From Azorinus chamasolen (taxonomy: Eukaryota > Mollusca > Bivalvia > Cardiida > Solecurtidae): DNA of 64,000 nt. The notes beneath the pieces were generated by a model. The model saw only the letters and a program-made list of their open reading frames with translations. It had not been told where the DNA came from and ran no database searches. The DNA lies in the NCBI GenBank assembly GCA_963576725.1, contig OY755240.1, forward strand, positions 63,098,003-63,162,002, given 5' to 3'. Positions 7,466 to 57,091 of this stretch are shown here, piece after piece; position 1 is the first letter of the stretch, and the number at the start of each line of letters is the position of its first letter. The position numbers and the translations under genes are program-made.

Positions 7466-7795
7466 GATATAAGTATATGTATGAAGCATTCAGGAAACAC
7501 CGCATACAAAAAAACACACAACCGCCCAAACAGCACCAACACGACAAACAGCAAATGTACATGAATATAAAAGACACAAAGTGACGCACGGACAAAAGAA
7601 ACAAACAATAGGGGGAAGATGGAAGTACCGCCTTGAAACGGTCAGTGACAAATGCCACTGGGGGTTTCAACTGGTTTATGGGTGCCCAATCTCACACTTA
7701 TTCCATCCCCACCCTGAAAAAACAGTGTAAATAAATAAATCCCCTCTCCGACTAATCTACAACAACCGCGATGGCAAATACAGTGGTAAAAGATG
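7466..7795 (-). repeat. SINE-like dispersed repeat, copy 1
   Basis: It shares GGAAGATGGAAGTACCGCC, GTCAGTGACAAA, CGACTAATCTACAACAACCG and GCAAATACAGTGGTAAA with 35840-36175, and the reverse-oriented core with 49690-49990. It sits inside a satellite monomer: GACACACGTTCATGATAT precedes it and GCAGTGACCTCCGG follows. Several hundred bases of monomer between these points are missing, so this is not a simple insertion. Orientation is inferred from the CA-rich segment forming the presumed 3' part on the minus strand. It may belong to a molluscan V-SINE-type family, which was not verified. Confidence 0.6.
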
Positions 7796-17583: not shown

Positions 17584-18258
17584 TCACAGTTCACCTTTTT
17601 GTAATCGTTTTACCGTAACTTTCATTGACTTGTGGTCACCAGTGTTGCAGATCACCTGTTCCCCATCAACTATATACTCAGAGTACTGAACTTCGTAGAG
17701 TGTCCGAAAACCGGCTTTCTCGTAAATGCTCTTGGAGTAGTTCGATGTTCCCTCGCCTTTTATGTACACATTTTCTAAGTCGAAGCCTTGAACCATTTCT
17801 ATCGCAGGAGTGAAGATCTTTGTTGCCAGGCTTTGATGTCGATATTCTCGGGCCGTAGAGAGGCCAACGAAATGAATCGGCTCGGAACCAGCTCCTGTCG
17901 ATCCAAAAAAGTCAGCCATTTCTCCACAGTGTTTAAAAAGAGCCAAATATTTCTTTATACCCGGGTCTATGGCTTTGTCAGGTTCGATTTTTTGATTTGA
18001 TCGAATGATGCGTATTATGCGTATGGCCATTGGCTCTCCTGTGTCCGAATTGATGAGCATCAGAGACATGTTGTCACGCAGTGCCGCAAGAAACAAATTA
18101 GAATATTCAGGCGTCCATTCTAAGTTTATGGACTTGCCGGCCGGTTCGTCCTTTACAAAGGGTTCCATCAGCGTCAGGGCATCGTCATACTATTCTTCAG
18201 TGACAAGAACAAGCTTCCCTTCCGTAATCTTGACAGCATCTCTCGCGCTCTCGAACGC
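17584..18258 (-). pseudogene. GNAT acetyltransferase exon (AANAT-like) with nonsense codon
   Basis: Translation gives AFESARDAVKITEGKLVLVTEE, then TAG, then YDDALTLMEPFVKDEPAGKSI and an open run of 194 codons. Order: N-terminal DEP segment typical of invertebrate arylalkylamine N-acetyltransferases, then GLSTAREYRHQSLATKIF (acetyl-CoA motif A), then KGEGTSNYSKSIYEKAGF (motif B). The intron acceptor CTTTCAAG lies just upstream (AG at 18259-18260). The paralogue at 56423-57091 has TAT where this copy has TAG, and Gly where this copy has Ser in RHQSLA. Upstream exons are not visible. It is probably a recent pseudogene; use of the Met 14 codons downstream cannot be excluded. Confidence 0.75.
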
Positions 18259-33930: not shown

Positions 33931-34029
33931 GGTAATAAGTGGATTTCGAACCCACGCCAGGTCATACAAAGAGTAAAATTGAACACTGATTACCAATGCC
34001 ATAGTCCACTCGACCACTGAGTCATCGAT
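33931..34029 (-). repeat. tRNA-like SINE head with Pol III terminator
   Basis: The minus strand has an A-box-like AGTGGTCGAGTGGACTA, a good T-arm and B box GTGGGTTCGAAATCCAC, then CCA followed by TTTTTT. The acceptor stem does not pair, so it is not a standard tRNA gene. It is most likely a tRNA-derived retroposon or tRNA pseudogene. Confidence 0.5.
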
Positions 34030-34680
34030 ATAAATAGCTCTGATTTATTAGTTTTATTAACTTAACCTACTGCTGCAGAAACGCGGTTTAATAAGAATCA
34101 AGTCGGGAAGCAAATATTAATTGATAAAAAGTACATGTTTCCTTTTTACTCGCATGACAATTAATTAAGAAACTCTAAAGGGACGGGAAATGGCATATAC
34201 CTAAATAATCTGTTCAGTTCCATCGATTTATGAGTAGGTCAAAAGAGTAGAAACTGAGCCGACCGTTACTCGATTTTTATACGGAATGCAAAATTCATTG
34301 GAGAGTAGGATAAAATATTCACGTCTATATGAATTAAAATATCGACATTCTGGATTAATCTGATTTTCTTTTACAAATTCAACCACGTTTTCTATAAATA
34401 CTTTAATACTCAAACTCCTTATTGGTTAGTGATAGTATGACTGCGTATTTTTTATATAACCAATACTCGCGCATGCGAATAGCCACAACTCGTCCCGTCC
34501 GGTAGACGGTGATATTCTTTTTACTATAAAAATCATCCAAAAATACGCAGACATCCAATTCCAACACTGTGGAGAGACCTCTAAAACAATGATATTTATT
34601 GGCTGGTGTTTTATAAACTTTTCAAAGGAAGTTATGTCTTCGCGAAAAACTGTAGAATAAGATTGTGCCATAATCAAATA
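34030..34680. other. No recognisable gene
   Basis: AT-rich. An 83-codon minus frame (34677-34426, beginning MIMAQSYSTVFREDITSFEK) matches no family I recognise and has no clear splice or repeat context. It could be chance or a short exon. Confidence 0.4.
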
Positions 34681-35275
34681 AAATCAGACCTAGATCCTGT
34701 AGGAGCCGTCTGATCTGGATCTATTCTGTTTGCAAATGCATGAAAAAGGTATTTATATGAGCGAACTGGTTTAACAGTCACTATTCTAACCTATAAACGA
34801 ATGCGGTCCCATTGTATACAGGGTATACTCAGATCAAAGGTCGTCTAAAATAATCCACCGATAAAGGTCCGCACTATTTGCCACACTAATAAATGTGAAA
34901 AGTTTTCTCCAGTTTATATTTCTTCTGCAGACACCCCACCCACTACACGTACGCACGCACACACATCCTTACTCCCACTTTGCCTTTATTTAAACGAGTT
35001 AACTTCATATGATATTATAAGGTCAGAAGATCTAATAACCCTTTACAGCAAGTTACACCTTTCTATGCCCTTGCAAACAGAGTAGACCAATATATTGCGG
35101 CTACTGTAGGATCCATCTGATCAGGGTCTGCTCTGCTTGCCAGCGATATAATATAGATATGATTTTACAGTTTCTGCCATAGTTAAAAGTGTCTGTGTCC
35201 ATGTACTTTTGTAACAAGTAATCTTATTAATAACCATAATGTCATATTTTCTTACATGAATATTCATGGAGTTAA
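34680..35275. repeat. Type E fragments separated by unassigned sequence
   Basis: A half hairpin at 34686-34735 (CTGTAGGAGCCGTCTGATC) and a diverged unit at about 35040-35275 with CAAACAGAGTAGACCAATAT, GGATCCATCTGATCAGGG, CAGTTTCTGCCATAG and AATATTCATGGAGTTAA. 34760-35040 between them holds a short CA run only. Confidence 0.6.
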
Positions 35276-35334
35276 GCGAAAAAGAAACCCGTGTTTGTTC
35301 CTTTACTTGGTCGTTGTAGAACTGTTTTACTCAA

Positions 35335-35581
35335 AGGGGGCCATTTCGTGGATGTAAAAAAATGATAGGGTCGATTTAGTGTTTATAACACTAAATTGAC
35401 CCAATCAATTTCTTTTTTGACTTATAGACCAAAACAATCTTCTTACCCACAACATAGAGGACGGTAGAAAGACGGTAAAAAAATTGATTGCGTCGAATTA
35501 GTGTTATATACTATAACACTAAATTGACGCAATCATTTTTTTTTTACTTTTAGACCATCTAGACCTACGAAATGGCCCCCT
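35335..35581. mobile_element. Double-hairpin MITE with GGGGGCCATTTCGT ends
   Basis: TIRs AGGGGGCCATTTCGTGG and CCTACGAAATGGCCCCCT. Two separate hairpins lie inside: GGGTCGATTTAGTG / CACTAAATTGACCC at about 35370-35408, and TTGATTGCGTCGAATTAGTG / CACTAAATTGACGCAATCA at about 35482-35536. Both hairpins share the GTCRATTTAGTGTTATA word, so one probably arose from the other. Confidence 0.8.
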
Positions 35582-35649
35582 GTGGTTTTACTACAGACGC
35601 CGATAAAACAGGAAACTTTCTTGAATGCTTGTTGTGATTTATGCCTAAT

Positions 35650-35815
35650 GGGCCCGTCACACCATAACGTTCTGGTCAGCGTTCTCTGGCGTTTGAGGAA
35701 ACGTTGGTAGTCGCCCATGGTCGCTTGAATAGCGCTAGAAGAGCGTTGTGTGAACGCTTGTGAACGCTAGTGAACGTCGGTGATCGCCGGGAATCGGCGG
35801 AGAACGCTGGTCCGA
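35650..35815. repeat. Left arm of an old inverted-repeat element
   Basis: Starts GGGCCCGTCACAC and continues with many AACGTT, GCGTT and GAACGC words to GAGAACGCTGGTC. A mirrored arm, GACCAGCGTTC to GTGTGAC, is at 48335-48553. The SINE-like copy, Naiad and LTR element lie between, so this looks like the host of the nest. The match is through short words and is not strong. Confidence 0.45.
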
Positions 35816-35839
35816 AAAAAAAGTTTTGAACTTGCACAC

Positions 35840-36180
35840 AAAAAAAGTACAAAAATGAGTCATGCAGGAAACACCACATACAGAACAAACACTCGCCCGA
35901 ACAGCAACACAAGGAAACAGCAAATGTACATAGGTAGACAAAAACAACAAGAGACGCACAAAGACAAAACAAACATACAATAGGAGGAAGATGGAAGTAC
36001 CGCCTTGGAACGGTCAGTGACAAAAGTCACCGGGGGTTTAAACCGGTTTATGGGCGCCCAACCTCACCCTTATTCCATCCCCATCCTAAAAGACAAACAG
36101 TGTAAATAAACGTATCCCCTCTCCGACTAATCTACAACAACCGCGACAGCAAATACAGTGGTAAAGTGCATGTATAACAA
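35840..36180 (-). repeat. SINE-like dispersed repeat, copy 2
   Basis: Same sequence as 7466-7795: GGAAGATGGAAGTACCGCC, TTTATGGGCGCCCAACCTC and GACTAATCTACAACAACCGCG. It lies directly downstream of the Naiad retroelement on the same strand. The three copies (with 49690-49990) share the core AAACCGGTTTA. Confidence 0.65.
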
Positions 36181-36292
36181 AAAAATACATTTAATTGAAC
36201 ATACTGTATCCACCTATCGCTAGTGTACTCAATGATTGAGCTGCAAACAGAGTAACTGTAGAAAAGTAATAAAGGGTACGACAAAAATGAAA

Positions 36293-36357
36293 TAGTACAG
36301 ATATCCGACGTTCTCCTTCCATTTCTGGCTTTAAGAGGTCGCCTTCATAGAGTACTA
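36293..36357 (-). promoter_or_regulatory. Candidate SECIS element after the Naiad stop
   Basis: Minus-strand fold by hand: helix I UAGUAC (36357-36352) with GUACUA (36298-36293); 4x4 internal loop; quartet UGAA (36347-36344) opposite GGAU (36306-36303), the non-Watson-Crick SECIS core; helix II of 11 positions with two mismatches (36343-36333 with 36317-36307); apical AAA at 36332-36330; short helix III CCA/UGG with a GAAA loop. The 11-nt distance from quartet to AAA and the extra helix fit type II eukaryotic SECIS elements. Helix I includes the TAG stop itself. A selenocysteine role is inferred. Confidence 0.72.
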
Positions 36358-39300
36358 AACCTTTCTTGTCGGTGTACATGCAAAGAGGCCAGCGTGATTG
36401 CCAACTGTAAAAGGGTTCACAACCAAACATGCAGTATGTTGTAGTAATACAGGATCATATTCCTTTTTAATGATTTTTTTTATATATTTGATGAACAAAG
36501 TGAGAAAATGGGTATGTCCAATAATTTTACGAAGCTTGTAAATCACATCACCATAAAATTCAGGATGTGAGATACCGTGTCGCAAAAGTACCTTGAGATT
36601 ACATTTGTACTTGCCAATAAGCGAGAGATTTCGATAGTAAAATTTAGAGAAAGATTTTCTTAGTTTATGGTATCTATATCCTTGTTTAAGCAGTTTTTCA
36701 GTTAAAATGAGATTTCGACTGTTAAAATCGTCAACAGATGAACAAGCTCTAGCAAAACGAATAAGTTGAGATATATAAACCCCGTAAGATGGAGCACGGG
36801 GAACATCCCCGTCAAGATGAGGACAATTTACAATATTAAAATCAAAATCATCTCTTTTGTCATATATTTTAGAAGAAATCATTCCATTATTAATTTTAAG
36901 GTCTAGGTTAAGAAACGCTGCATAATTGTCGGACGGGTTAGCTTTATTCAATTTGAGTTCTTTAGGATAAATTGTAGGAATCAGAGCATCAAAGAAAGGG
37001 TTATCTAAGTTAAAAATATCATCCAAATATCGACAAGTTTCATTGAAGGCTTTTATAACATCTTCTTGTGATTGAGGATTCAAACTCAACATGAAATCTC
37101 TCTCATAGCAGTACAAAAACAAATCTGCGACAAGTGGTGCACAATTCGTACCCATGGGAATACCAATTACCTGACGGTATATAGCATTCCCATAACGTAC
37201 AAATATATTATCCAAAAGAAAGGTTAGTGCTTCGCAAACTTCTGAGCAAGTCCAATTGGTGTAATATTTCATTTGCTCGTCAGTAAAGAAATCTTTTTCA
37301 GCATTACATGCCAAGAATGATGTTTTTTCTCGGGCAAATACTTTCTGGATCAAGTTAGTAAGCTTATCCTTAATTAAAATATGAGGCAGAGTTGTGTACA
37401 GAGTAGAAAAATCGTACGTGCTTACAGTGGATGCAAGATACCTTTTGTTCTTAAGTTTGTTTAAGACTTCTGAAGAGTTCTTAATAGACCAGAAGAGATT
37501 TATTCCAGAATTTTCATAAGTCTTATCACAGTAAAATTTTACATGTTCCTTTACCTTCGTTAAACAAGAAGTCAAAAGTATAGACAATTTAGTAGTTGTA
37601 CATGAACTAAAATTTGCAATGAAACGCGCTTTATATGGTTTTTATGTAGTTTTGGTAACCAATACATTGTAGGAAGTTTATGTTGTGTAATTTTAATATC
37701 GGTTCCAAATTGTTCACACTTTTTGACATGGTCTGAAATGATGGTCTTTTCGTCAGTGGTAACTGAAATGTATGACTTGGTATTAATAATTTCCTGCTTC
37801 AAGACATCGATATAATGTAATCGTCAAATAATAATCACATTATTTGATGCCTTATCAGCAGGAACAAAAACGTATTTTGAATGGAAATCCTGTAAACCCT
37901 TTTTAAGATGTCTAAATGAAGTTCTAGGTTTAGGTGGAAGAAGGTGTTTATTAGAGCTGTAAAAGGAAATGCGTTTATCAATTATATCAAAAATTAGTTT
38001 TTTCCAACAAGAAAGGGCATTAGACTCAACATGTTCTCTTCGACACCATTTAATACTAAACTTTTGTAAAGCCTCCGCAATCTGAACTCGACAAGAGTTA
38101 AAATCTATCAAGGATGGTATTCCATATTTGAGACCTTTATTCAAAAGAGATCGTAGACGTTTATCTTTAATTATCTCAAAATTACCAGTAATCACATGAC
38201 CAGCCGGAGAATAGCAAAATTTTGAGGTGGCGCAATCTCAATTATCAGGAATATTATCATTAATATTAAGGTCGGCCACAATTTTATTATAGTTGAAAAT
38301 TGTATTTCTGATGGGTTTGTTATATTTGTAGCAGATGATAGGTGGTTCTGTATTTTTAAAGTATTTAGGAATAGTGTCAATTACATTTTTGTCTCTAAAA
38401 CTACTTTGGAGGTCAATAAAATCAATACCTTTATTAATAAAAGGAATTTTCAAGAAGAATCTTTGGTGTTCAGATAATTTGTCGATGTGCGGTCTGAGAA
38501 CATGTAGAGTAAAGCTTTGTATCAAACTAGCCGTTCCTATGAGAGGATCTGATCGAAAAATAATTTTATCGGCTTGCTCGTCAATTTCTTTTAATGAACA
38601 TATAGATAAGGAGGAAAGTCTAGAAAGCATGGCATGTTTACCCGAAGTTAGGCGTAAAGTATGTAGATCAAGAAGAGTCATTTTCAAACGAGATTTTCGT
38701 TTAATATTACCATTTTTGCGAATGCCATGCGATCGAGATTTGCGTTTTCTAATAGAAAAAATTGAAAAAATATCTATATCTGGTTCTTTTGAAATATTTC
38801 CAGTCTGGTAAATATTATCATTCAGTCCTAAAGGAAAAGGTGTTTGCAATTTTTTGATCCAATTTAATTCAGATATAAATCTAGCTTTCGATTTAAAGCT
38901 ACTAGTCGCCTCCTTATCATATGTTATATGCTCAACAATTTGTACTAAAACATCTTTAAAAGAATGGCCAGATTTCCGAAAGTGTTGGTATAAAAAAATG
39001 TTTAGTTTACGATTTCGACACTGATATGCATGCTCACGAAATCGAGTTTTCAAAGCACGTCCTGTTTGTCCTACGTACTGTATACCGCAACTAGGCGCGT
39101 TTCAAGTTAAAACATAAATAACGTTAGTAGTAGTACAATCAACGTCTGAGTTTATCTTGACATTAAATGTTCTACCATTAACTGTAGATTTTATAGTGGA
39201 ATTACAAGAAATGTTACTACAACATATGCACCTCTTAGCAAAGCACTTTTGGATAATTGGATACACTCTGTGTCGCCTGCATAAGGACCGTTTACGAATA

Positions 39301-39545
39301 GAAGAAACATTTTGGATAACAGATTTTAAAGGTGAAAGTACAACTCTTGGTCCATTGAAAAAACATTTATTAATAGAAAGAGATGGTATGTGAAAAGATG
39401 ATGCCGACTGAAGATTAAGTTGTTTTAAACGAACAAAAGGTTGAAGGGAAGAGAAATTAGAAATATGTCTGGGTACTTGTACAGACGACACAGATTGCAT
39501 ATTTAAAGCATTTGGTTCTATTCGAGGTATTTTAACTTTATTCAT
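36355..39545 (-). CDS. Naiad GIY-YIG/reverse transcriptase with in-frame TGA codons
   Basis: Numbering from Met at 39545: Cys cluster CICCSNISC near residues 111-125; GIY-YIG core VIYVLT, TGA (148), then SCGIQYVGQTGRALKTRFRE; TGA (436) in N-TGA-DCATSKFCYSPAGHVITG, the CxC region; TGA (574) in NNVIII-TGA-RLHYIDVLK; then WLPKLHK. Reverse transcriptase motifs follow: YDFSTLY (Asp at 37411-37413), GIPMGTNCAP, RYLDDIF (YLDD Asp pair from 37021-37023). The frame ends at TAG 36355-36357. One shift occurs at a five-A run (37639-37643); reading resumes in another frame through ARFIANFSSCTTTKLS. All internal stops in frame are TGA at expected Cys positions. The product would nick DNA and prime reverse transcription at the target. 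An upstream in-frame TAA at 39600-39602 limits the start. Confidence 0.85.
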
Positions 39546-39674
39546 ATTGGAAAGTGATAGAGGGGCACCTGTATTGTGTTCATCAACACGTCAATTACAT
39601 TAGTGTAGCTACCAAGTGCATCAAATTGTTGGTGAACACAACACCTACCACGAGGTGCATGACATACTTACTTG

Positions 39675-41150
39675 TGTTGTGGGGTTCTTAAACGTCAGGA
39701 TGACACCACTGACCTCTCGGGTCAGAAATAAAAGAATTTAAAAAGAATAACTGAAGACAGAAGTGTGATTAAACTGTATTTTGAATCAAACTCTAATCTA
39801 AGTAAACAATCTAATCTAAGAAACAATAATATTTACACAATATTTACACCAGAGCCAAAAAGTAAACAAGCTTAGTTCTAAAAAGTGCATCAGCCAATTG
39901 CTAATGAAAAGATAGAAGAAAAAGAGCCAAAAATGGAGCTAGGGAATAATTTAGATTTGATTGAGCGATTCTCTCCCCTAACCATTTAGAATCAAAAATA
40001 TTAAATGCAAAAGATCAGAGATGCTTAAGGCTTCACCAAATAGCAGTAAAGTTAAATTATGCTAAATAGTAAATACCAATGAAAGTTACCTTCTACAAAG
40101 TAAGAAGAGTAGCTTTCAGGTCCCTGGTTCTGGAGAGAATCTCAGAAGCATAGAACAGACTCACTTATATAGAGAAATGTCACATGACCTAAACTAAGCT
40201 ATCTGATTGGATGGCTACAAGATATCACCAAATCTCACACTAATTTGTTTTTCCAAAGACTAATGCAATAAATCTAATTTACACAACAATAGACTTATTT
40301 TATCTCAATATAATCAAATATGAGTGCCAAATTGCAATCAAAAATCATTTAAGAAAAACCTCTTTAGTCTAGGTCTGCAGCCCCTAGGCTTCAGACCCAT
40401 TCACTCTAGAAAATCATCAATTACAGAATATAGATAATCTCAATAATTCTAGAAAAATAGCAATCTTAAATCTAGCATATTCATAAACCCTAAGAACATA
40501 GTTCCAGAATTTATAACAACTTATTGACTGTAAAAATAGCAAAAACAAGTGGCTCTCAGGCTCTGTAGCCCCTAATGGCGGCCATTACCCTAAGGGCACC
40601 TGTTGCTAAATATTCCAATAATTGCAAACTATGGCTCTCTACAACATGTCACTGTTAAATTAATATGCCTAAATCATCTAAACAACAATGATCAACATAT
40701 TAGCCATACAAAATAGTCCAAACTAATCTCAAACATGTTTAAAATGGCATTAGTTTGGGTCTAACTGAGAAGTAGGTCAACTGCCCAGAATGTAAACAAA
40801 GAAGATTATGGCTAATTGCTCTAATTATAGATAATGACACTTCACATAAATGTGTATAAGAAGTTTCCTTACTAAAACAAATCAAAATAAGTTACAGATC
40901 ATAGAGAATTTCTATTAAAAGATGTATTTCCACTCTAGATCATATCTGTCTATATAAGCTATATAGATGGAAATGACATCAGAGCAAAAATCATATTCCA
41001 AGCTTAAAACACATTAATTTCACCAAATATACAAAGTGTCAAGCACGTAAATGTGTATCGTAACTATCAACACTAAGATCTGTATCCAAACTAGCTAGAC
41101 AGATTCATAGATCTGTTCAAGAATGGCAACTCAACTCCAGTTTTACAACA
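39675..41150 (-). repeat. 3' LTR
   Basis: Offset from the other LTR is exactly 7151 bases throughout. The minus-strand sequence just before it (41151-41170) reads CTCCAGGGGGTGCTG, a plausible short polypurine tract. Confidence 0.93.
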
Positions 41151-43118
41151 CAGCACCCCCTGGAGAAAAATAAAAATATCGCAAGATATTTTTACATTTC
41201 GTCCCCGAAATAATGCTTAAATTGTTGAGTTGACATGCTTTAAGTACAAACATATCAAAAATATAAATTTTGTATCAGACTAAAAAATATCTGATACGAA
41301 CACTAGGAACTATCAAAACTGAAAGTAAAACAATAACTATATACAGTTTATCAAAGTCATATAAGAGAAAAAACAATGGACTACTAGTAAATGAGAAAAC
41401 TAATTGAACTTAATAAGTATTCCTCATTAAACCAATAATCAAAATTTAATCAATCAAAAATAATCAAAAATAATTTTGAAAAATTACATGAATAATCTTC
41501 TAATTATAAAAGCGAATTGTAATGTTCAAAAAAGAATTATAAGAGACTAACACAATTTTGACTGATGAAAAATATGCAAAGTAGCAAAAATAGTACAATT
41601 GTATCAGTTGCTAAGTGTTAAACTCTTATCTAGAAAGTGTCTAAAAAATTACATGACACTCACTAAAAACTCATGCAAAAACTAAATCCTGTCACATAAA
41701 AATTGTGACATCTTACAAAAATAATAAATACTGAACAAAATATGTAACAGATATAATCCAGTTATCTAAAAAAATCTCAAGTGGTAACACTTGCAAAACT
41801 TCTAACCTATACAACAGTAGGTTTAACTTCAGAACAATAATAACTTGCCATTAGAAAAATACAAATATGCTATTAACCAAGAGTATCTGTGTCCGAACAG
41901 AAATACTTAAGCAAGAAAATGCAAAGTCTAGTGAAAACTTATCAACAAAAAATTATCAACAAAAATATTAACTCGACTATGATCACTATGCATGGCCTTC
42001 CTGATTTACTTATAAAGTATAAAGTCTGATAAAATCTCTAACTTGAAGTTCCTTCAAAAAATGAGTTATAAGAGACAACAACAATTTAATTTACGAAACT
42101 CAACTGGTGCATTTAAAACTGTACACCTACTAAGATCTCAATAGCTTATAAGAGTAGTCTAGATTTCTCAATAAATTTCTCAACAACTCTCTTAGTTCAG
42201 AGAAAAAATGCTATCCTGATAACTTCTGTGCTTATTACATGAAAAGAATTCCCTAAAACTGACAAACACACACACATTATTTGAGACAAGCCAATAGATA
42301 CTTAAAACCTAATGCCTATTCTCAAAGGACAAACAAACATAAAGGTGGGTATGCGCACAATTAAAGCAATACCTCAGCTCAAAAGACAAAAAATGCAGAT
42401 GTAAGAGATTAGACCCTAGCACCTAAATGCATAATTGCCTAAACACGAATAAAAAATTTAACTTGCCTATGCGTAGATATTAGAACCTAGCATCTCAATG
42501 CAGTTAACTCTCAAAAACTAACAAAAATAATTGCCTATGCCTAGATACTCAAAATCTAGCATCTCAATGCAATACTCTCAAAAAATACACAAAAATCATT
42601 GCCTATGCGTAGATACTTAAAACCTAGCATCTCAGTGCAATACTCTCAAAAAATACACAAAAATCATTGCCTATGCGTAGATAGTTAAAACCTAGCATCT
42701 AGTAGCAAAAATAGAGCATCTCTTAAACATAAAAAGCACAAAAAATAGATCAAGCAAAATTCTTATCTGACTAACTCTTAAAACTAACTTAAAAGTTCTA
42801 CTAACAAAACTTAAAACTAAAATCTTAACAACTAGATCTTGTGGTCTTCTGTGGATCTAGGAAAGTCTTTCGGATGGCACACGCGATTTGAAATTACAGT
42901 TCTTCTTACAAACACGAGTTAAAGTTAAAGTTCACATTACACATATCTGTAGCGCGAGAGTCTTTCAATTATTACATTTCTGTAGCGTGAGTGTCTCTCA
43001 CTTTTCACAATATTTAAAACACAAATTTACGTTTCACAGATTTCTAACGCGATAAGTATTCACAAGTCTCTCGTCTCACTGGTTCACTAATTAATTTTAC
43101 ACTTGTAAGAATTATGAT
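41151..43118 (-). repeat. Non-coding 3' interior of the LTR element with tandem units
   Basis: AT-rich without long frames. At about 42400-42710 a ~65-bp unit (TTGCCTATGCGTAGATA, AAAACCTAGCATCTCAATGC, AATACTCTCAAAAA) repeats four to five times. No reverse transcriptase motif was found in any frame. Confidence 0.75.
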
Positions 43119-44165
43119 TTACGTGATGATCCAAATACTGTAATGTAACGCGTAGTCACTATATACATCTGGATCATACGCGAAATTCTGTTGTATGGTA
43201 CACACTCTTCCATACGTCTGGAATCGTTCCCTGGACACGCCTCGATCATCTATGTGGACATTGGTTCTCGGTTTGGCCCCAACTCCTGGATTTGTCTGAT
43301 TGGTTTTCGGTTTGGCCCCAACTCCTGGATCTGTATGGTGCGATTTATGGCCCACGTTGATGGTTCTAATGGGATGACAGACAGGTTTTGGTTGAGTCCT
43401 TCGTCTTCTTCTTAGGTTTCTGTCTCGATTGCAGGGGTTTTGGACATGCCCCATTATGTGGTTCTTCGGTCCTGGTTTTGCCTTTATGCGTCTGTTGCAG
43501 TTACAGGTTTTGCAGCCTCTGATAAAGTTTCTAATGTCCTGATCCATCTTGTACCAATGAAATTTCAGTCTGATTTGCTTGGAGGTTTTGTTGACTCCAA
43601 AGTGACCTTTATCTGCAGGACTATGGTTTTTCTGGATAATGTCTTCCTGCAGAATCTTTGGAACAAGAAGCTGGTGGTCAAATTTCTTTGTCGTAGAGTA
43701 GCGCTTTTGGTACAGGACTTCATCACGCCGTATTATGTTGTCTGAGTTGAGCCAGTATTTTCTAACTGCTGGACTGTAATTGGCTACCTCGTCTTTATCT
43801 GGCATATCTTTTCGTTTAAACCATTCTTGGATTATACTCAGATCTTCATCTTTATTCTGCATTTCAGATATCTCTTTGGTTGTGTAGCTAGGCCTTGAAG
43901 CTGGTTGTGGTGTAGTATCAGCTCCATTTTCATTTTGCTGATGGACATCTTGGTCACAGTCTAAGGCCCTGATAACATGATTGGCGGGACCAAGGTCAAC
44001 TATGGCTTCAGTTCTAACTCGATATATAAGGACTTCAGCTTGTTCTTTTACTTTCCTCTGGTTAGTTGTATCATGGTTTTGACTTCTCTCTCGGGGGTGA
44101 TGAATCTGGCTCTGGTCAAGTAGGTTGGCCATTCGGTTAAAGTATCGATCGGTTTTGTCTAACAT
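43119..44165 (-). CDS. Truncated pol remnant: integrase zinc domain only
   Basis: A 348-codon frame in the -1 frame relative to gag; its ATG overlaps the gag stop as ATGTTAG. Residues 100-160 resemble the linker before integrase (DLSIIQEWFKRK, LNSDNIIRRDEVLYQ). The integrase HHCC zinc motif follows: His181, His188, Cys218, Cys221. After PGPKNH the sequence turns basic and Pro-rich with a repeated DPGVGAKPKTNQTN unit, and no DD(35)E core is present. Protease, RT and RNase H should lie between gag and this point and are absent. The product cannot integrate DNA by itself. Confidence 0.82.
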   Translation of the reverse strand: MLDKTDRYFNRMANLLDQSQIHHPRERSQNHDTTNQRKVKEQAEVLIYRVRTEAIVDLGPANHVIRALDCDQDVHQQNENGADTTPQPASRPSYTTKEISEMQNKDEDLSIIQEWFKRKDMPDKDEVANYSPAVRKYWLNSDNIIRRDEVLYQKRYSTTKKFDHQLLVPKILQEDIIQKNHSPADKGHFGVNKTSKQIRLKFHWYKMDQDIRNFIRGCKTCNCNRRIKAKPGPKNHIMGHVQNPCNRDRNLRRRRRTQPKPVCHPIRTINVGHKSHHTDPGVGAKPKTNQTNPGVGAKPRTNVHIDDRGVSRERFQTYGRVCTIQQNFAYDPDVYSDYALHYSIWIIT

Positions 44166-45745
44166 TTGGGCTGGTTCTCGGCCATTAGATCCAGCCCTCT
44201 GGAGTTTTCCGACAACTTCTGGTCTATTTTTGTTTCATTTCTTGGGCATTTCGGTGAAATATGACCTTCTTCGCCACAGGTATAACATATCATCTTTCGT
44301 CGATTGGGTTGATGCATACTTGTGGAGTTTCTCTCTGTATTGACTGAAGACAGGCTTCTCTTCAAGTCATGAGCAAACTGTTGTAAACGCTCTTCTGTCA
44401 CAAATTTTCTGCCATTTAAGCGTCTTACATCAGGCTCGGATTCTTCTCTTGTATCTTCATTGAAGATGTGTGGATCCATCTCTGGACCAGCTTGTATGTG
44501 GCGTAAACCGGATCTCTTTCTGGTAGCTTCTTTGCAACATTCATGCCAGCTGACAAGATCAATGGCGTTGTTCAGTGACTGCGGCTGACGTACCAAGACC
44601 TCATATGCAATACTCTGGTCTGGCAAGCCATTCATGAAGTGTTGGATCAGCAGCTTTTCATATGTCGTAGTATGACCAATATCTGGATAAGCCTTTGACA
44701 TCAGGGCTCGTACTCGGGATGCATATTCTTGCAGATTTTCCTTTGAACTCTGTTTGATTTGGATTAGGTTGGCTCTATGAGTCTCTGCTGGAGCAATGTG
44801 ACTGAATCTTTCTCTCAGGGCCCTGATTAGCTTGAATGCGTCTTCTCGAATGTCAATGGTAAGGTTGGCTGCAAATACCAAAGCCTCGTCTTTCAAGCTC
44901 AGTAGAAGTTGTTCTACTAATTTACGCCCAGTCCATCCGTAACGCTCGGAAAGTAGTTGGAATTTCAGCCAAAATGCGTCCCATTCACCAGTTTTGCCAT
45001 TGAAGGTTGGAAAATGTGGTTTCGGTTCATCGGAGTATCTGGTTCTCTCTGGATTATATGTATGTGGATATCTGACATGGGAGCGATCAGCAAAGTTGTC
45101 CCCCTGGTATCTTGGAGTTGGTCTCACTGGAGGTTCTCTCCGTGGAGGGTAGTTGTAATCCCAGACTGGTGACTTGGGTCTTCTGATAGGTGACCGGTTC
45201 ATGTAGTCAGACTGATGGGGTTGCCGTCTCGGGAAGTGTGAGCCTTCAGGTTTGAAGTTTGGCTCACATGCTGGAAGTCCTGGCATTGTAGCAACTTGAA
45301 AGGTTGGTCTAGCTGGCTGACCTTGGACCGGCAAGTCGTTGGTTTGGCGTGGTGGCTGGGGTGTAGTGACGTGTCCCCAACCACTTCTGCTGAAGATATC
45401 TGCCTCTTCTCTGATAGGTGGCAGGTGCAGGTACTCATTGTTAGAGCGACATGGCAGGAGTGGCGTTGGTGAGCGTCTTGCAAAAGTGTTAGCTCTGGTG
45501 GATGACACTGTGCCACTAGGTGGAACTCTGTCTGGATCTAGATGTTTATAGTGGTCATCTGGTGAGATTGGACCTGTTGGTGTAGCCCAATCATGGTCTT
45601 CATGGTCTTCTTGAAGTAGCTGATATGGCGTAGGGAGCTTTCGTGACAGTAGCTCCATCAAGTTTTCTGGATGTGCTTCGATGACGGATATGTCTTTGTA
45701 GATGTTGGCAATGTTTCTCTCTGGCTGGAACACTTGAGTGACCAA
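44159..45745 (-). CDS. Gag of the LTR element
   Basis: An open frame of 528 codons. Residues 1-240 are Pro/Arg-rich. A retrotransposon gag core (PTFNGKTGEWDAFWLKFQLL to LRERFSHIAPAETHRANLIQ and YEKLLIQHFMNGLPDQS) spans about 245-410. A single CCHC zinc knuckle, Cys487, Cys490, His495, Cys500 (CYTCGEEGHISPKC), lies near the end. The product should assemble the particle and package RNA. The frame is intact, and its stop (TAG 44161-44159) overlaps the ATG of the next frame. Confidence 0.9.
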   Translation of the reverse strand: MVTQVFQPERNIANIYKDISVIEAHPENLMELLSRKLPTPYQLLQEDHEDHDWATPTGPISPDDHYKHLDPDRVPPSGTVSSTRANTFARRSPTPLLPCRSNNEYLHLPPIREEADIFSRSGWGHVTTPQPPRQTNDLPVQGQPARPTFQVATMPGLPACEPNFKPEGSHFPRRQPHQSDYMNRSPIRRPKSPVWDYNYPPRREPPVRPTPRYQGDNFADRSHVRYPHTYNPERTRYSDEPKPHFPTFNGKTGEWDAFWLKFQLLSERYGWTGRKLVEQLLLSLKDEALVFAANLTIDIREDAFKLIRALRERFSHIAPAETHRANLIQIKQSSKENLQEYASRVRALMSKAYPDIGHTTTYEKLLIQHFMNGLPDQSIAYEVLVRQPQSLNNAIDLVSWHECCKEATRKRSGLRHIQAGPEMDPHIFNEDTREESEPDVRRLNGRKFVTEERLQQFAHDLKRSLSSVNTERNSTSMHQPNRRKMICYTCGEEGHISPKCPRNETKIDQKLSENSRGLDLMAENQPKC

Positions 45746-46806
45746 GTGTGATCAGACCGGATGCAGTATAACTCTTTGATTGTACAGACTCGGATGCAGT
45801 ATAACTCAGTTGAGATATCTTTCAAAACACTTGAGAGATCAAGTGTGATCAGACCGGATGCAGTATAACTCTTTGATTGTACAGACTCGGATGCAGTATA
45901 ACTCAGTTGAGGTATCTTTCAAAGTAACCTGGCTATACTAGATAACCAAGGTTTTGTACGGATGCAGATAACAGACAATTTGGAAGAAAAAAATGCTGTT
46001 TTATACCAAGATATAAAACTGCAAAGTGATTTGCAAATTTGCATTTAATAAAAAGTACTGAATTTGATTTTGAATTTCTCAGTTAAACTCAGATATCTGG
46101 TTATAGCTCATAGCCTTCACCTGTAGATCTGGAGGTCATCTACAAATGCAGTTCATAAAGAGATGTCTATAACTAGTAATCTGTAAAGTGTTCACTAAAA
46201 CACAAAGGTGTTACAAATCAAAAGAAATAGCGCAAGCCAAAATGTGCATAATTTGGTTAGTGAACTCTTGCAGGGCAAATGGACTAGGAGATAAAGTATC
46301 GCAAATTTCACTTTCACAGACACCTACTGCTGTGTGCTCGAATTTGCAAAACTTTAACAGACAAAGAGTCTGAGACTGGTCAAAGAAAGAAATGGATAGA
46401 AACAGGGTTGGACTTCTAGGGACTTAAAGTTATCACTTTTCTCCACTGGCAAGCCTCTACACTGTTAGCGCGTTAGAGACAGAATTGTCAGTCAGAGGTA
46501 TGACACTTTATGACCTTTTAGACTTCAATTACTTTCCCCCACTGGCAAGCCTCTACACTGTTAGCGCGTTAGAGACAGATGTCAGTCTGAGGTGTCTACA
46601 ATCACTTTCTCCACTGGCAAGCCTCTACACTGTTGGCGCGTTAGAGACAAATGTCAGTCTGAGGTATGATTGGCCTTTAAAACAAAATGTCTACAAAACA
46701 AAATAATGGACCACGGGCTGAACCTAAAGTTGGGAGCTTTAAGGCTGTTACTGCACAATCTTTATTTGAAACTTCCTAAGAGAAACTTTTTTTTAAAAAA
46801 ACCAAC
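45746..46806 (-). repeat. LTR-element leader with two minisatellites
   Basis: A ~57-bp unit (CCACTGGCAAGCCTCTACAC, GTTAGCGCGTTAGAGACAG) repeats three times at about 46440-46670. A ~100-bp unit (GTGTGATCAGACCGGATGCAG, CTCAGTTGAGATATCTTTC) is duplicated at about 45735-45930. The rest is AT-rich. No coding sequence was found before gag. Confidence 0.8.
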
Positions 46807-49330: not shown

Positions 49331-49689
49331 TTGAGAGAAATAACAAAACTGAAAACTCAAAAACTGCCTGACGGATAGAAACGAAACGAAATTGTTAATG
49401 TAAATAACTTTTGATTTTCATCGTTTAGAAACGTTAGAATAATAGCTTGAAACCGGGCAATGCCTGGATGATTAAAATATCTGGATATATTCCCCTGTCA
49501 TAAAATGATAATCAAGAAGGACAACTCTTCCACCTTAAAGTGTTATCGTTTATAAACTGTCGTGCCCTTAACGGCTTCCCTGCAGCAGGTGCTCTGACTT
49601 CAGCAAAGTCATTGAGTACATATTTGACGGATTTTCACAGTTATTATGCTATGTTTTACATATTGTCATGTGTTTACCGTCCTCTATGG
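49331..49689. other. No recognisable feature
   Basis: AT-rich sequence without a recognisable gene or repeat family. Confidence 0.5.
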
Positions 49690-49990
49690 TGTGGGTAAGT
49701 CCGGCGGGAATACCTTTATTTAAACTTTTTGTAAAGCTAGGGTGACTTTGAGAGAAGAGTGAGGTTAGGACGTCCGTAAACCGGTTTAAAACCCCAGTGG
49801 TGTTCTTGCTACTGACCGTGCCAAGGCGGTACTCTCTTTGTCACCCTTGCTTTTGTTTGTCTTGTGTCTTTGTGCGTGTGCTTTTGTTCATGTCTCTAGC
49901 CCTTGTGTGTTTGTTGGTGTTTTCTGTGTGTGTGCTTTTGGATGTGGCTTTGCCTGTTTGACTTTAATACTTTTCCATCGATACGTTCAG
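49690..49990 (+). repeat. SINE-like dispersed repeat, copy 3
   Basis: Plus orientation: GTAAACCGGTTTAAAACCCC, CTACTGACCGTGCCAAGGCGG, then a T/G-rich tail TTGTGTGTTTGTTGG ending GCCTGTTTGACTTTAATAC. The 72-codon frame at 49838-50056 is a reading of the low-complexity tail. Confidence 0.62.
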
Positions 49991-56318: not shown

Positions 56319-56422
56319 CAGTACTTTCCACCGGATCAAGGGGTTTTTAGATAACTTTCTTTATAACAAGCATCTATTTTGAAAATTTACTTAGTAATCC
56401 AACTTTATTATTTTCTTTTAAG

Positions 56423-57091
56423 GCGTTCGAGAGAGCGAGAGATGCTGCCAATATAACGGAAGGGAAGCTTGTTCTGGTCACTGAAGAATATTATGACGAT
56501 GCTCTGGAACTCATGAAAAACTTTCCACAAAACGAGCCGATCAGCAAGTCCATTGACTTACAATGGACATTAGAATTCGCTGAAATGTTTATGGCATCAT
56601 TTCGTGAACACCTCTCTCTGATGCTCATCAATTCAGACACAGGAGAGCCGATGGCATTACGCACAATACGCATTGTCCGTTCCAATCAGGAATTCGAGCC
56701 TGAAAAAGCTAAAGACATAGGTGTAAAGAAAATAATGGCTTTTATAAAATACTGCGACGAAAAAGCGGACTTTTTTGGACGAACAGGATCTGATTCCGAG
56801 GCGTTTCATTTCATGGGTCTCTGTACGGTTCCAAATTATCGACACCAAGGCCTGGCCACAAAAATATTTAATGTTGCGATACAAATGGTTAAATGCTTCG
56901 AACTGGAAAAAGTGTGCGTAAAGGGCGAAGGGACATCGAACTACTCCAAGCGTATTTACGAGAAAACCGGATTTGAGACTCTCAGTGACACTCAGTTCTC
57001 TGATTATATAGTAGATGGCGAACAGGTGTTCTATAATACTGGTGACCACAAGTCTATGAAAGTATATGGAATTACGATTAGGACAACTTAA
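56423..57091 (+). CDS. GNAT acetyltransferase, 3' exon (AANAT-like)
   Basis: The exon begins after TTTTCTTTTAAG with AFERARDAANITEGKLVLVT and is open for 222 codons to TAA. N-terminal EYYDDALELMKNFPQNEPIS is typical of invertebrate arylalkylamine N-acetyltransferase-like proteins. Acetyl-CoA motif A is VPNYRHQGLATKIF. Then KGEGTSNYSKRIYEKTGF and a C-terminal DYIVDGEQVFYNTGDHKS. The family transfers acetyl from acetyl-CoA to amines, in the cytosol; the substrate cannot be told. Paralogue of 17584-18258 on the opposite strand. The last ten residues (YGITIRTT end) differ from the paralogue. The upstream exon is not in evidence; substitution of the last exon alone as a retained duplicate is possible. 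Confidence 0.8.
   Translation, partial: AFERARDAANITEGKLVLVTEEYYDDALELMKNFPQNEPISKSIDLQWTLEFAEMFMASFREHLSLMLINSDTGEPMALRTIRIVRSNQEFEPEKAKDIGVKKIMAFIKYCDEKADFFGRTGSDSEAFHFMGLCTVPNYRHQGLATKIFNVAIQMVKCFELEKVCVKGEGTSNYSKRIYEKTGFETLSDTQFSDYIVDGEQVFYNTGDHKSMKVYGITIRTT

Follow-up and report, generated by a model that had tools for sequence, protein, structure and literature searches.

What does it mean for a retrotransposon when a long reading frame is interrupted by TGA and by no other stop codon? The question is raised by a Penelope-like element on the minus strand of a 64,000-nucleotide stretch of the genome of the bivalve Azorinus chamasolen (assembly GCA_963576725.1, contig OY755240.1, positions 63,098,003–63,162,002; G000:C6:63098003-63162002 in the 1.72-Gb assembly that we searched for copies). 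The whole stretch is called the window here, and positions refer to it. We find that the element is very likely a Naiad-type Penelope-like retrotransposon, the single protein of which is predicted from sequence to be a selenoprotein with three selenocysteines (Sec). The three TGA codons very probably specify Sec, because TGA is conserved at these sites, related proteins have Cys there, a hairpin of the Sec insertion sequence (SECIS) type covaries between families and the host has a gene for tRNA-Sec. This evidence bears out the initial annotation of the locus, which had taken the TGAs for Sec codons and not for decay.

Three TGA codons in an otherwise open frame

The frame opens at an ATG (39545 on the minus strand), and a recheck down to 37640 found the same stops as the initial annotation—three TGA codons (sites 1–3; Table 1) and no TAA or TAG. 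At this base composition, a stretch of 634 codons should contain about 24.6 TAA, 10.4 TAG and 10.4 TGA codons; the probability of encountering none of the roughly 35 TAA and TAG codons is about 2e-16 (from single-base composition). Another genomic copy, L002, has one frame of 1,063 residues with TGA at positions 148, 436 and 574 and a final TAG. The final stop is TAG in all 28 loci that cover that position and TAA in a second young family (F2); it is never TGA.

Alignment with other genomic copies, the check proposed at the outset, found the TGAs conserved. All three sites are TGA in each of the 30 loci inspected, the window copy included (90 of 90 site-by-locus cells), with no sense codon of any kind in these cells. 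Random stop decay among close copies was likewise not seen: the other stops in the 30 loci (15 instances, comprising 9 TAA, 1 TAG and 5 TGA, spread over 14 distinct places and 13 loci) are each private or confined to one neighbouring pair of loci. A protein search of the genome gave three TGAs in 69 of 69 scored copies, one of which adds a TAA, and with an all-Cys relative (P0077) as the query, 48 of 48 scored matches were TGA-bearing, one with four TGAs; these searches scored the best candidates only, so that Cys versions could exist among unscored ones, and the 69-copy, 48-match and 30-locus sets overlap. In family F2, 40 of 40 scored copies are 99–100% alike over 931 bases, and the copy read (L036) has TGA at all three sites. 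Diverged pieces that flank other copies (75–77% DNA identity) carry TGA at site 2 in the single case covered and at site 3 in both.

Cysteine in related proteins

The initial annotation had placed the TGAs where related proteins should have Cys, and distant relatives do have Cys at each of the three places: in the pair ahead of the GIY-YIG core, at the opening position of the CxC motif and following the NNxxxx stretch. Among 15 distant relatives, Cys occupies site 2 in 14 and site 3 in 15, and both sites belong to the 9 of 635 columns that are at least 80% Cys in this set. At site 1, all 13 Cys-type relatives in the alignment rows inspected have a Cys directly after the strand that precedes the GIY-YIG core.

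A broader search returned 97 homologues of the first part of the frame. Exactly one residue before site 3, 50 of these come to an end (an end that leaves the type of stop unspecified); Cys occupies the site in 16 and Trp in 11, 19 terminate further upstream and 1 begins beyond the site. For site 2, Cys (68) and Trp (17) predominate, followed by one Ser, one Glu, one sequence that ends exactly before the site, eight that end earlier and one that starts after it. Site 1 is covered by few sequences (3 Cys, 3 Trp and 1 Lys), as 79 start after it and 11 show a gap because of a two-residue length difference. Of the 120 homologues listed for the second part, 7 extend as far as site 3, with Cys in 5 and Trp in 2. 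The search takes proteins of 0.55–1.75 times the query length, and site-2 Sec forms are under-sampled in these counts. The Trp residues probably represent TGA codons that the gene caller of the source read with code 4, given that a degraded copy of another family in the same genome (L040) has TGA at the same four columns (137 and the three sites).

These data bear on two alternatives to Sec. If the locus were a decaying pseudogene, the three TGAs would be nonsense mutations that a dead copy had acquired by chance, and the frame break at 37643–37639 and the further stops in 13 of the 30 loci would fit such a history; yet the same three codons recur in every locus and scored copy, TAA and TAG are missing where about 35 are expected, and either TGA or Cys stands at these positions in other families and in distant relatives. 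We consider decay already refuted unless the sampling of copies was grossly biased, and give it next to no credence. A sequencing or assembly artefact is just as hard to credit, for although the A-run variation described below lies in a homopolymer, the TGAs lie outside homopolymers and recur on many contigs, and 50 of the 97 homologous open reading frames (ORFs), which come from other data sets, end at site 3.

Four Naiad-like proteins (P0082, P0086, P0193 and P0197) are filed under bacterial metagenome-assembled genomes, two of them as Candidatus Thiodiazotropha. Members of Candidatus Thiodiazotropha are symbionts of lucinid clams, and the presence of such proteins in bacterial bins is probably due to host contamination.

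A SECIS-like hairpin at the stop codon and a host tRNA-Sec

A hairpin that overlaps the end of the frame, and that the initial annotation had not mentioned, carries what we take to be the AUGA, GA-core and AAA-bulge motifs of a SECIS, and matches the Rfam SECIS_1 family with 25.3 bits (E = 0.15 over 4,227 families, or about 4e-5 for one family by simple division); the common form found in L002 and L021 scores 26.0 bits. Eight forms of the hairpin (from the window family, the variants L018 and L027, F2 and a further family, F3) align without gaps, with AUGA, AAA and the A of the GA core invariant. Over the eight rows, 91.7% of cells are paired, compared with 27–42% for slid structures, a control that leans towards the hairpin because the structure came from F1/F3 folds of the same sequences. 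Compensatory changes have occurred between families: both sides have changed in 7 of the 18 pairs, and the alignment has a covariation score of 0.325 versus 0.191 in shuffled alignments (0 of 500 shuffles reach 0.325). The F1, F2 and F3 forms fold with z-scores of −3.09, −2.12 and −2.85, respectively.

The stop codon itself forms part of the basal helix. Its third base is paired in all eight forms (G–C in four, G–U in three and A–U in one, the last being the TAA of F2), and its first two bases are each paired in seven of eight. The host genome encodes a tRNA-Sec with anticodon TCA (ARAGORN), detected with 80.7 bits at C15:42628169-42628254. Two further matches have 47.2 bits each, barely above the cut-off of 47; only the 80.7-bit match was used, because the same search also gave matches in 14 of 14 control genomes (above the cut-off in 5). 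The locus and its host thus combine conserved UGA codons at Cys positions, a downstream SECIS that scores below the gathering threshold and a tRNA-Sec gene.

Several observations weigh against reading the TGAs as Sec. The Rfam score of 25.3 is under the curated gathering score of 35, and the diverged copy L027, in which the G of the GA core is lost, has no Rfam match at E ≤ 5. The window hairpin folds modestly better than shuffled sequences (z = −1.24), and the minimum-energy fold of the F2 form differs from the SECIS fold. Shuffled alignments match the two-sided pair count in 22 of 500 cases and the pair-type count in 457 of 500, which makes these two counts weak or uninformative as measures; the structure counted was derived from folds of the sequences tested, and F3 copies, taken in without reading their coding parts, make up three of the eight rows. 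Constancy of TGA over 29 close copies is weak evidence by itself, as a rough estimate expects only two to three changes. The F2 copy that was read (L036 at about 1800–1900, in a C16 tandem array) is frame-broken at a T-run in the endonuclease. Odd letters also stand at the sites in some homologues—Lys at 148 in P0080, and Ser (P0083) and Glu (P0093) at 436—and we take these, without proof, to be misaligned or broken stretches.

The F2 break at the T-run contrasts with the 99–100% likeness of the F2 copies downstream.

The low Rfam score would also suit a read-through that needs no selenium, in which a leaky UGA is decoded as another amino acid and the hairpin acts as a general read-through signal or a structural RNA signal. 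We hold this to be very improbable: the sites are Cys in distant relatives, the hairpin has a SECIS core and covaries, and the host has tRNA-Sec. Decoding as Sec accounts for the TGAs far better.

Domain architecture of the predicted protein

Naiads are defined by an N-terminal GIY-YIG endonuclease, a CxC linker, a CCHH zinc motif and pseudo-long-terminal-repeat or tandem copies; they are not known to carry a hammerhead ribozyme and show a bias towards insertion in microsatellites. Pfam searches gave no match at E ≤ 1 for the first part of the protein (P0001) and none for the second part (P0002), and sequence searches of the PDB gave one weak match per half, neither of which was used. Structure models were more informative. 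The model of the N-terminal half (mean predicted local distance difference test score (pLDDT), 76.8; built with 44 sequences) is closest in the PDB to the catalytic domain of I-TevI (1ln0_B; template modelling score 0.81 on the target, probability 1.00, E = 0.033), with zero PDB matches at E ≤ 0.001. Among eight relatives scanned, the GIY-YIG family PF01541 exceeds its curated cut-off in P0074, P0077 and P0081; P0035 spans the endonuclease domain and has no PF01541 match above the cut-off, and the remaining four are without the N terminus.

The C-terminal model (pLDDT 87.3) has ten top PDB matches that are all telomerase reverse transcriptases (RTs), the best being 6zdq_A (E = 1.1e-7), and the RTs of Penelope-like elements are kin to telomerase. 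The YLDD sequence, which we take to be the RT catalytic motif, has both Asp residues invariant in 49 aligned sequences. Between the two domains, the CxC linker is present as U-D-C at residues 436–438 (U, putative Sec), and Cys occupies position 438 in 85 of the 88 homologues that cover the column. The endonuclease region contains the putative Sec148, Cys153 and several His residues, of which His188 is nearly invariant.

As modelled, the protein combines a GIY-YIG endonuclease with a telomerase-like RT C-terminal to it, which is the Naiad layout and agrees with the original assignment to Naiads with an N-terminal GIY-YIG. The element has further Naiad features in tandem copies at other loci, where units are spaced by about 3,961 bp, and in the absence of a hammerhead ribozyme from the seven Rfam matches at E ≤ 10 in 34000–41000. 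The window copy is solitary, with neither a second tandem unit nor a long direct repeat of the element in 34500–41500. The span first proposed for the element (36355–39545) lies inside it and proved too short; its lower limits differ by a few bases among copies, and some copies are shorter.

Table 1 Features of the Naiad-type element in the window (all coordinates are window positions).
Feature	Position	Strand	Basis or remarks
Naiad-type Penelope-like element, body	35843..39670	minus	Usual extent of matches to other copies
Reading frame, first part	37640..39545	minus	About 634–635 codons, three of them TGA; covers the N-terminal endonuclease, the CxC linker and the beginning of the RT
Putative Sec site 1 (residue 148)	39102..39104	minus	First Cys of the pair before the GIY-YIG core in relatives
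Putative Sec site 2 (residue 436)	38238..38240	minus	First residue of the CxC motif (U-D-C)
Putative Sec site 3 (residue 574)	37824..37826	minus	Start of the RT region, after the NNxxxx stretch
Predicted GIY-YIG endonuclease domain	38847..39122	minus	About residues 142–233; limits judged from the secondary structure of the model
Five-A run, frame lost (−1) in the window copy	37639..37643	minus	12 of 30 loci carry one base more
Reading frame, second part	36358..37641	minus	428 open codons in the −1 frame; predicted telomerase-like RT
Presumed YLDD catalytic motif of RT	37018..37029	minus	Sequence
Stop codon TAG	36355..36357	minus	Closes the second part of the frame
Predicted SECIS element	36294..36356	minus	AUGA and GA core, AAA apical bulge, extra apical helix; Rfam RF00031 (SECIS_1)

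A frame break shared among copies

The break that the initial annotation had reported at a run of five A residues was located there, and the −1 frame is then open to the TAG. The short run is not private to the window copy and is common to many copies: the sixth base is absent in 18 of the 30 loci, two of which (L027 and L029) also carry substitutions at the run, and present in the other 12. Short- and long-run loci are intermingled on a tree (support values not considered). Of the 69 copies retrieved with the N-terminal part, 53 have frames that reach 1,030 codons or more when TGA is read through.

Programmed −1 frameshifting would give the required frame, but it was rejected because the T-AAA-AAC at this place is not known as a standard slippery heptamer and because a long open frame is present in 53 of the 69 copies. 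We take the shorter run to be damage, its scatter over the tree being left without explanation. Because the A-run breaks its frame, the window copy is probably inactive or not autonomous.

The spread of the short run may reflect slippage that recurs, an old variant that was moved in trans or base-call error.

A fourth column and the apparent order of Sec gain

The degraded copy L040 belongs to another family and has TGA at columns 137, 148, 436 and 574, each of which is a Cys or putative Sec column in the window copy; it also has frame breaks and other stops, including a TGA at Arg 503. Column 137 is Cys in the window copy, Trp in 4 homologues and Cys in 13 others, and L040 apparently carries a fourth Sec column there. 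On a FastTree phylogeny of 85 homologues and the window copy, site 3 requires at least two changes between Sec and Cys and site 2 at least three, when an exact end before site 3 is coded as Sec, unclear states are left open and support values are not considered. Sec at site 3 marks the ingroup save P0038, which as a query retrieved a copy of the same family, and site 2 acquired Sec on more than one occasion. Five further close relatives (P0100, P0199, P0202, P0203 and P0211) have Cys at site 3 but leave the region used for the tree uncovered; they were excluded, for which reason the change counts are minima. From these sequences, Sec at site 3 looks older than Sec at site 2, with exceptions.

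Such interchange raises the question of whether Sec brings any benefit. Once a SECIS is aboard, a one-base change from Cys to TGA would be tolerated and could be fixed by drift, with no advantage from selenium. This neutral ratchet competes with a functional reading of Sec and not with the identification of the codons as Sec, and we give it somewhat less than an even chance. Sec and Cys have been exchanged repeatedly at sites 2 and 3, as the tree and the five excluded relatives indicate, and column 137, a Cys in the window copy, is TGA in L040 from this genome, all of which speaks for drift. The ratchet is opposed by the near limitation of recoding to four columns, because free drift should recode more: the 15 other conserved Cys columns have Trp in only 0 to 2 sequences each (two at column 813, both all-Cys relatives, and one each at columns 485 and 802), a comparison that is biased by the length filter of the search.

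A possible mode of expression

The following steps rest on general knowledge of selenoproteins and Penelope-like elements. In the element transcript, the SECIS at the stop codon would recruit the Sec machinery of the host, all three UGAs would be decoded as Sec, and the ribosome would terminate at TAG (TAA in F2). Sec at site 1 would replace a putative zinc-ligand Cys, and Sec at site 2 would turn the CxC linker into a U-x-C pair. The GIY-YIG domain would then nick DNA and the RT would copy the element RNA, that is, by target-primed reverse transcription. Because all UGAs precede or begin the RT, this domain would be made only after three Sec insertions, and transposition should therefore depend on the selenium supply of the host.

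The overlap between stop codon and SECIS could have a further consequence, although we think it unlikely. A terminating ribosome might unfold the SECIS and render Sec decoding self-limiting, such that, after the first full-length protein, later ribosomes would halt at UGA 1–3 and the ribosome-cleared RNA would become the template for the protein just made. If this were true, the overlap would act as an inherent switch that is linked to host selenium and moves the RNA from translation to reverse transcription.

Other features of the window

Two pieces of Naiad tail lie elsewhere in the window, at 7481–7790 (83.5% identical to 35855–36165) and at 49687–49895 (71% identical to 35936–36139); both matches exclude the SECIS. 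On the minus strand at 43119–45751, ORFs of 530 and 371 amino acids resemble, by eye, gag (with a CCHC knuckle) and parts of the integrase of a different retrotransposon. Two similar ORFs (17584–18189, minus strand; 56351–57091, plus strand) are acetyltransferase-like by eye. For the latter, a host-like ORF, five homologues are listed; the best among those with a species name is from Mercenaria mercenaria (45%), and two carry precomputed matches to PF00583 together with PF13673 or PF13508, which are acetyltransferase families.

Relation to known systems and significance

Craig, Yushenova, Rodriguez and Arkhipova (2021, Mol Biol Evol 38:5005) reportedly described multi-selenocysteine Naiads in clams and spiders. 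Those elements are reported to resemble the present one in having an N-terminal GIY-YIG, a CxC linker, a C-terminal RT, several Sec and a high copy number. Multi-Sec Naiads would thus already be known in clams, and the window element is a further example of that kind; the comparison covers domain order, the presence of several Sec and copy number. That work may already include the stop-in-SECIS geometry, the covariation between families and the order of Sec gain.

Canonical Penelope/Poseidon elements, as presented in excerpts of one account (PMC11167929), likewise combine an RT with a GIY-YIG endonuclease and a tandem arrangement. Their endonuclease is C-terminal, in contrast to the N-terminal position in the window element. 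A host-side parallel is selenoprotein P, which serves in selenium transport. Excerpts of two reports on molluscs give up to 132–133 Sec in the selenoprotein P of one bivalve (PMC8744743, PMC8230778), suggesting that bivalves can read several UGAs per message. Unlike the Naiad of the window, selenoprotein P is encoded by a host gene and not by a mobile element.

Standard gene callers misread proteins of this kind, many homologues being broken at Sec codons or apparently read as Trp. In this genome, the decoding signal, the decoding gene of the host and hints of a stepwise origin are visible together, so that the adoption of the host's selenocysteine code by a mobile element, which is very probable here, can be followed fairly completely, with recent copies and with families that differ in age and in the number of Sec. 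The Cys-bearing relatives act as controls, such that an advantage of Sec can be tested against a neutral ratchet, and the dependence of transposition on selenium becomes testable as well.

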